The notes under the pieces were generated by a model. That model searched no databases. It was not told where the DNA came from and saw only the letters and a program-made list of their open reading frames with translations. The position numbers were made by a program, and so were the translations under genes. A DNA stretch of 64,000 nucleotides from Ptychodera flava (lineage: Eukaryota; Hemichordata; Enteropneusta; Ptychoderidae). Of this stretch, positions 4,977-25,185 are shown piece by piece; within the stretch, counting starts at the first letter, position 1; each line of letters starts with the position of its first letter. Where the stretch lies: NCBI RefSeq assembly GCF_041260155.1, contig NW_027248278.1, forward strand, positions 18,612,244-18,676,243, read 5' to 3'.

Positions 4977-5198
4977 TTATTCTCGCCGAGGACTAACCTC
5001 AAGAAACAACTTTTCCACCAAATCCTTCCTCCTTTTGAGTTCGAAATCTTCCTGTCGTTTTGCTTTAACCACCTCCATACGTTCCTTTCGTATGGGTTTC
5101 CTCGCATCAATTCTATCGTGTTCCGTCTGTTTGTACTCCTTCAAGGCTTCTTTTTCATCGTCGTCGTCTCCAAAGCGAACCCGAACAGCAACCAAAAC
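4977..5198 (-). CDS. receptor exon 25: cytoplasmic tail
   Basis: Phase 0 from a TTAG acceptor, it encodes VLVAVRVRFGDDDDEKEALK and a highly charged, probably coiled or helical tail of about 73 residues, ending VSPRRE and TAA. A GTTAGT just before the last six codons could be a further donor, so the true end may lie in another exon. Confidence 0.62.
   Translation of the reverse strand, partial: VLVAVRVRFGDDDDEKEALKEYKQTEHDRIDARKPIRKERMEVVKAKRQEDFELKRRKDLVEKLFLEVSPRRE

Positions 5199-25185: not shown

Follow-up and report, generated by a model that had tools for sequence, protein, structure and literature searches.

A predicted domain-shuffled adhesion GPCR of Ptychodera flava with pentraxin, HYR, sushi and EGF modules ahead of a HormR-GAIN-7TM core

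Does a single gene of Ptychodera flava encode an adhesion GPCR (aGPCR) whose pentraxin head is separated from the HormR-GAIN-7TM part by HYR, sushi and EGF modules, and what kind of receptor would such a protein be? The question arises from a stretch of 64,000 nucleotides (the window; all positions below refer to it). The favored answer, given a probability of roughly 0.7, is a domain-shuffled aGPCR with the order signal peptide-pentraxin-HYR-HYR-sushi-EGF-HormR-GAIN/GPS-7TM-charged tail, which would act as a force- or binding-gated receptor for matrix or cell surfaces.

The gene model was built from splice sites and phases. A total of 25 exons were joined by hand on the minus strand, from the ATG at 25185 to the TAA at 4977 (Table 1). 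The joined frame of 3639 bases encodes 1212 residues with no internal stop. GT-AG borders were found in all 24 introns, the phase is kept at all 24 junctions, and the weakest donor of the model (8994) has a score of 2.6. The count of 25 minus-strand exons in one frame, as given by a sequence-only reading made earlier, was reproduced together with both ends. When exons and introns of the same shape were placed at random on both strands of the window, all 4000 placements were interrupted by stops (mean 64.6, minimum 3). The G+C content is 0.43 in the exons and 0.364 in the introns.

Table 1 Predicted exons and modules of the receptor gene.
Feature	Position in the window	Strand	Basis
Exon 1: ATG and predicted signal peptide (residues 1-24), ends in phase 1	25113..25185	-	Hydrophobic 19-mer; donor CAAG/gtaagt, score 8.5
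Exon 2: pentraxin domain (residues 25-239), phase 1-1	22035..22679	-	Pfam Pentaxin 3.8e-20, exon alone
Exon 3: HYR 1 (residues 240-321), phase 1-1	21434..21679	-	Pfam HYR 1.4e-4, 22.5 bits (cut-off 21.7), exon alone
Exon 4: HYR 2 (residues 322-408), phase 1-1	20745..21005	-	Pfam HYR 2.9e-15, 56.8 bits, exon alone
Exon 5: sushi/CCP-like module (residues 409-462), phase 1-1	20304..20465	-	Pfam Sushi 0.0021, exon alone; four cysteines
Exon 6: calcium-binding EGF (residues 463-522), phase 1-1	19941..20120	-	Pfam EGF_CA 5e-9, 36.7 bits, exon alone
Exons 7-8: HormR/HRM (residues 523-591)	19531-19421, 18657-18563	-	Pfam HRM 1.7e-5, scanned alone; aligns with latrophilin-3 and CELSR1
Exons 9-14: GAIN (residues 592-836)	18353-18174, 17868-17800, 16996-16876, 16517-16368, 15396-15330, 13200-13053	-	Pfam GAIN; ADGRL3 2e-9 over HRM-GAIN-GPS
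Exons 15-16: GPS and tethered agonist, CKCPHP/TVAAVVM (H878-P879/T880; slash, cleavage position)	12307-12258, 11646-11526	-	Pfam GPS; ADGRL3 GPS alignment
Exons 17-23: TM1 to start of TM7	11104-11007, 10828-10729, 10468-10344, 9727-9635, 9060-8994, 8542-8457, 8227-8101	-	Pfam 7tm_2; ADGRD1
Exons 24-25: end of TM7, helix-8 region, charged cytoplasmic tail, TAA	5557-5516, 5198-4977	-	ADGRD1 alignment through 'gsqifltlfatnvevlvav'

The model was compared with the output of a generic gene finder, which used generic codon scores and no profile or family knowledge. With an intron penalty of -11, the exact borders of 17 of the 25 exons were returned; one of these 17 (8542-8457) was put in another frame, false exons were added, and neighbouring genes were fused with the receptor gene. 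A permissive setting merged everything on each strand into one 'gene' and was rejected. Settings with stronger penalties, under which a zinc-finger gene was still fused with the receptor gene, were rejected as well.

The signal-peptide exon lies 2433 bp from exon 2. Its placement depends on the start codon, a hydrophobic core, a strong donor and a phase that fits, with no homology support. An imperfect inverted repeat surrounds it (region 24894-25672; arms 24922-25105 and 25462-25645, 83%), with the exon in the loop, and a related copy of the repeat is found at 61854-62070 (75%). The inverted repeat resembles a foldback or MITE-like element.

Several other features were recorded in the window. 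Two C2H2 zinc-finger genes lie in opposite orientation, at 35125-37971 on the minus strand (949 aa, 23 motif matches) and at 60559-61608 on the plus strand (350 aa, 10 matches). They look like inverted paralogues because the stretch 59723-60986 matches 37947-36644 in inverted orientation at 72%. Tandem arrays are present at 57661-58971 (225-bp unit, 5.8 copies, 83% matches) and 31095-31605 (145-bp unit, 3.4 copies). A direct repeat of 650 bp with 98% identity, at 52286-52936 and 54065-54713, is perhaps a recent transposable element pair. No hit in the window came from Rfam at the gathering threshold or from a tRNA scan.

The ectodomain modules were identified by Pfam scans of the joined protein and of single modules. 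In the joined protein, Pentaxin (1.6e-18, 67.6 bits), HYR in two stretches (1.2e-17, 64.5 bits) and GAIN (2.6e-13, 50.3 bits; residues 601-816, profile positions 2-209 of 210) scored above their cut-offs, and EGF_CA (5e-6, 27.1 bits) scored just above its cut-off of 27. HRM reached 0.0041 and 17.9 bits in the joined protein and 25.5 bits alone, below the cut-off of 26.2. Similarly, GPS reached 0.049 and 14.6 bits in the joined protein and 2.2e-4 and 22.1 bits alone, below 22.5. Sushi was not listed for the joined protein and reached 18.8 bits alone against a cut-off of 20.7. The seven module types ahead of a seven-helix domain claimed by the sequence-only reading are therefore all found, at different strengths: Pentaxin, both HYR, EGF_CA, GAIN and 7tm_2 exceed their Pfam cut-offs, whereas Sushi, HRM and GPS stay below theirs even when scanned alone. 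The claimed order PTX-HYR-HYR-sushi-cbEGF-HormR-GAIN was recovered from the scans of the joined protein and the single modules. Each of exons 2 to 6 (pentraxin, HYR, HYR, sushi and EGF) carries one module and has phase 1-1 at both borders. One phase 1-1 exon per module is the pattern expected of exon shuffling.

Comparison with PDB sequences placed the individual modules further. The closest match of the pentraxin exon is neuronal pentraxin-1 (3.4e-17); neuronal pentraxins are the nearest matches, and the third is a SAP-like pentraxin, presumably a horseshoe crab protein. The neuronal pentraxin-1 stretch GQEQDTLGGGFDATQ aligns with GQDQDSLEGGFNDNQ in the receptor pentraxin. With calcium-ligand positions that we take from C-reactive protein, the ligand positions are partly kept and partly changed, and the description of this pentraxin as calcium-site-bearing holds for some of them only. 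When the pentraxin exon was modelled by itself, the predicted structure had a mean pLDDT of 31.6 and was not used as evidence. The EGF exon contains both DxDEC and CxNxxGxYxC. No meaningful match to PDB sequences was obtained for the HYR and sushi exons. For the HRM-GAIN-GPS part, ADGRL3 (latrophilin-3) is closest, and ADGRD1 appears only at E 0.97. Ten of the 11 N-glycosylation sequons lie in the ectodomain.

The region around the GPS departs from the usual aGPCR pattern. Phe is typical at the third position of the tethered agonist, and the receptor agonist TVAAVVM has Ala at this position, without the usual Phe. The cleavage motif expected in aGPCRs is CxCxHL/T (PMC13197933). In the alignment with the ADGRL3 GPS, the receptor motif is CKCPHP/T, in which Leu is replaced by Pro. 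Weak or no self-cleavage would be expected because the motif is HP/T and the agonist lacks Phe. Signalling would then run through a rearranged GAIN domain that is uncleaved or poorly cleaved, and not through shedding. The intron directly after the GPS/tethered-agonist exon holds a perfect (AG)49 microsatellite at 11418-11516, 9 bp inside from the donor at 11526. Length variation of this microsatellite could affect splicing.

The seven-helix domain needed correction by hand. An earlier hand model, in which TM stretches were misplaced or in wrong frames, had no 7tm_2 match; TM3 was re-placed at 10468-10344 and TM2 at 10828-10729. The TM exon borders were corrected on the basis of splice sites, phase and motifs typical of aGPCRs, so that the above-cut-off 7tm_2 match of the joined protein (8.4e-10, 38.8 bits; profile positions 5-243 of 250) was partly selected for. 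Among the 11 PDB sequences matched by the 7TM, ADGRD1 is the best (1e-11, 48.3 bits) and ADGRL2 is next (0.0031, 20.5 bits). The ADGRD1 alignment starts within TM1, extends to the helix-8 region and includes part of the last two exons, past a 2543-bp intron. Seven segments are seen in the hydrophobicity profile, with TM3 weak. The disulfide-forming cysteines of aGPCRs are placed at the TM3 start and in ECL2; the model has no Cys for this conserved loop disulfide at the TM3 start or in its shortened ECL2. Scanning for mini-exons that exceeded the score thresholds yielded three candidates within the ECL2 intron, none with Cys, and no candidate within the ECL1 intron. In the TM7 intron, a search with stricter thresholds for an insert before the TM7 glycine gave no candidates.

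Conserved positions of the domain were then inspected in the ADGRD1 alignment. W3.50, P4.50 and G7.50, which are conserved at more than 95% in vertebrate aGPCRs (PMC8584163), are kept as W978, P1012 and G1126. The vertebrate motifs LHxxxLxxFxW, GxGxP and FxxxxxxQG, named in the same paper as disulfide-forming cysteines (PMC8584163), are each partly matched, as IHxxxLxxTxW, GxIxP and FxxxxxxLG. A TM6 proline is present in ADGRB, D and F (PMC8584163). TM6 of the receptor is IMLMLSVTALTWLVGTF, where the ADGRD1 Leu-Pro aligns with Leu-Ser, so the TM6 proline is absent. The last exon (5198-4977) has no Pfam match. A plausible alternative donor (score 5.0) was found inside it at 4998 on the minus strand, and the 3' end or cytoplasmic tail may have an alternative form.

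The altered GPS, the altered tethered agonist and the missing loop cysteines go beyond what the sequence-only reading had mentioned, and these changes could alternatively reflect lost function. In that case the receptor would be decaying or dead for signalling, its frame intact but its GPS, agonist and loop disulfide lost, with selection still acting solely on adhesion or on the capture of a ligand by the ectodomain. Such a state would account for HP/T in place of HL/T, for the lack of Phe in TVAAVVM, and for the missing Cys at the TM3 start and in ECL2, where no Cys-coding mini-exon was found above the thresholds. Against such decay, there is no stop or frameshift through the 25 exons, the W3.50, P4.50 and G7.50 anchors are kept, and the highly charged tail is open; this explanation is considered unlikely.

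The GAIN domain adjoining a secretin-family 7TM supports, at the level of the predicted protein, an aGPCR (class B2). The aGPCR identity proposed before was borne out by the GAIN, 7tm_2 and ADGRD1 matches. Like the receptor, ADGRD1 (GPR133) and ADGRD2 (GPR144) have an N-terminal pentraxin, a GAIN-GPS and a 7TM (PMC10687090). Unlike them, the receptor has HYR-HYR-sushi-EGF and HormR between pentraxin and GAIN, has HP/T, and lacks the TM6 proline and the loop cysteines. Its HRM-GAIN part also matches latrophilin-3 better than ADGRD1. Because the TM6 proline of ADGRB/D/F is missing, the protein is not filed in ADGRD and is described as a predicted aGPCR with an ADGRD-like 7TM.

Pentraxin, HormR and GAIN are also combined on a GPCR in ADGRG4 and ADGRG6, of which G4 has SEA and G6 has CUB; HYR, sushi and EGF are not named for either in the available text of the two sources (PMC13197933, PMC10687090). 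The ADGRG4 PTX lacks the typical calcium site (PMC10687090). The 7TM of ADGRG4 and ADGRG6 was absent among the 11 PDB sequences matched by the receptor 7TM. A SEA domain is also present in ADGRG6. In the ADGRE family (EMR2, CD97), calcium-binding EGF stands ahead of GAIN-7TM, and the receptor EGF exon matches the EMR2 EGF best and the CD97 EGF as well. We know of no pentraxin, HYR or sushi in this family, and its 7TM differs from that of the receptor.

Sushi, HYR, EGF and pentraxin are also found together in SVEP1/Polydom, which differs from the receptor in being a secreted matrix protein with vWFA and an ephrin-receptor-like motif and without GAIN or 7TM (PMC12549020). In the Pfam scan of the joined receptor protein, no vWFA was listed; the receptor has a single sushi-like module where Polydom has a long sushi tail, and it has a 7TM. 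Shuffled aGPCRs of amphioxus similarly carry unusual N-terminal modules in an invertebrate. PTX appears in a figure legend of that survey, the new modules are SMB, kringle, C-lectin, SRCR, LDLa, I-set, CUB and TNFR, and the terms hyalin and sushi are absent from it (PMC2246102).

How such a receptor would work can be outlined from these likenesses. Four phase 1-1 exons (HYR, HYR, sushi and EGF) would have been inserted between the pentraxin and the HormR-GAIN-7TM of a pentraxin-bearing receptor, where they would form a glycosylated stalk of matrix type. The pentraxin head may hold a matrix or cell-surface partner, possibly in a calcium-dependent manner. Tension on the stalk, or binding, would alter the GAIN-7TM arrangement and lead to G-protein signalling, as in ADGRD1. 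PTK7 combined with mechanical force activates ADGRD1, whose output is cAMP (PMC12206920). Its activation by antibodies against the N-terminal part requires a cleavable receptor, and the uncleavable mutant H543R keeps normal basal cAMP signalling and does not respond to a PTX-domain antibody (PMC9133650). This lack of response weakens the idea that an uncleaved receptor responds to its head. A more specific proposal, in which a lineage-specific aGPCR combines a Polydom-like matrix-binding ectodomain with an ADGRD-like 7TM, has lost canonical self-cleavage, the Phe-type agonist and the loop disulfide, and switches uncleaved by a non-Stachel route, is put forward as a tentative and doubtful one.

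The sequence-only reading had suggested a sensor of pathogen surfaces, apoptotic debris or matrix. As an immune pattern-recognition receptor, the protein would bind microbes or dying cells with its pentraxin and sushi. The SAP-like pentraxin that is the third match after the neuronal pentraxins fits this, as do the SRCR-bearing aGPCRs described in amphioxus and sponge and a sponge aGPCR gene that is up-regulated after microbial signals (PMC6208332). The calcium site, however, is only partly kept, the same kit of sushi, HYR, EGF and pentraxin also builds the matrix protein SVEP1/Polydom, which binds integrins and Tie1 (PMC12549020), and human aGPCR pentraxins have, in the sources at hand, either no known function or a partner of the collagen/PTK7 type and not a microbial one. 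Nothing in the sequence, among matrix, microbe and debris, favours pathogens specifically. An immune receptor is rated as quite improbable, and a force-gated receptor tethered to matrix or to a surface seems more probable than a pathogen sensor.

The earlier claim that the ectodomain and the 7TM belong to one predicted gene was supported. Between the pentraxin exon and the first GAIN exon lie seven short introns of 183-763 bp, among them the 409 bp that separate EGF from HRM; a gene end followed by another promoter would find little space there. The Pfam GAIN match spans a 2129-bp intron. The best 7TM match, ADGRD1, carries an N-terminal PTX, as does ADGRD2 (PMC10687090), and the pentraxin head and the 7TM of the receptor therefore plausibly belong together. 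The gene-finder score differences between one and two genes (18, 16 and 16 at three settings) do not discriminate when set against the boundary costs (16, 16 and 18). Taken together, a single predicted gene encoding the whole receptor from pentraxin through 7TM is supported. Two adjoining genes, a secreted Polydom-like pentraxin-HYR-HYR-sushi-EGF protein followed by a separate HormR-GAIN-7TM receptor, would suit the ectodomain kit, which equals the SVEP1/Polydom modules (PMC12549020), and the gene-finder scores, which do not discriminate without the boundary cost and lean slightly to two genes at the strictest setting, but are very improbable in view of the short EGF-HRM gap, whose two borders have usable splice sites in phase 1 (donor 4.0, acceptor 6.9), and a 7TM closest to the pentraxin-bearing ADGRD1.

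The novelty of the single-gene, domain-shuffled receptor was assessed against the literature. Among the matches listed in literature searches, mostly as titles and abstract openings, no metazoan aGPCR was found described with HYR or sushi, which is weak evidence of absence. A sponge aGPCR survey has none of HYR, hyalin, sushi or pentraxin, and no HYR, hyalin or sushi occurs in the available part of a 2026 aGPCR review (PMC13197933). Sushi is named in a figure legend of a sponge immune paper that spans GPCRs and other receptor classes together (PMC8242945), and a sushi-bearing sponge GPCR is possible. In two sponge papers with both 'GPS motif' and 'sushi', the accessible passages use sushi for other genes or in a pooled domain list and not explicitly for an aGPCR. 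HYR-bearing choanoflagellate aGPCRs may be described in a paper available in part (PMC12716839). The statement that no described receptor has this exact module order is consistent with the matches listed in these literature searches.

Extensive domain shuffling has been described for aGPCR heads (PMC12716839), and because of this the new combination stays within a well-known receptor class. The module mix is real and unusual; it is a new combination inside the known aGPCR class and not a new kind of protein. The predicted receptor would illustrate, in a concrete natural case, how a new aGPCR head is built by exon shuffling, with the two HYR modules, sushi and EGF each on a complete phase 1-1 exon between a pentraxin and an old HormR-GAIN-7TM. 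The joint changes at the cleavage motif, the agonist and the loop disulfide would make it a natural test case for signalling without cleavage or a Phe-type agonist.
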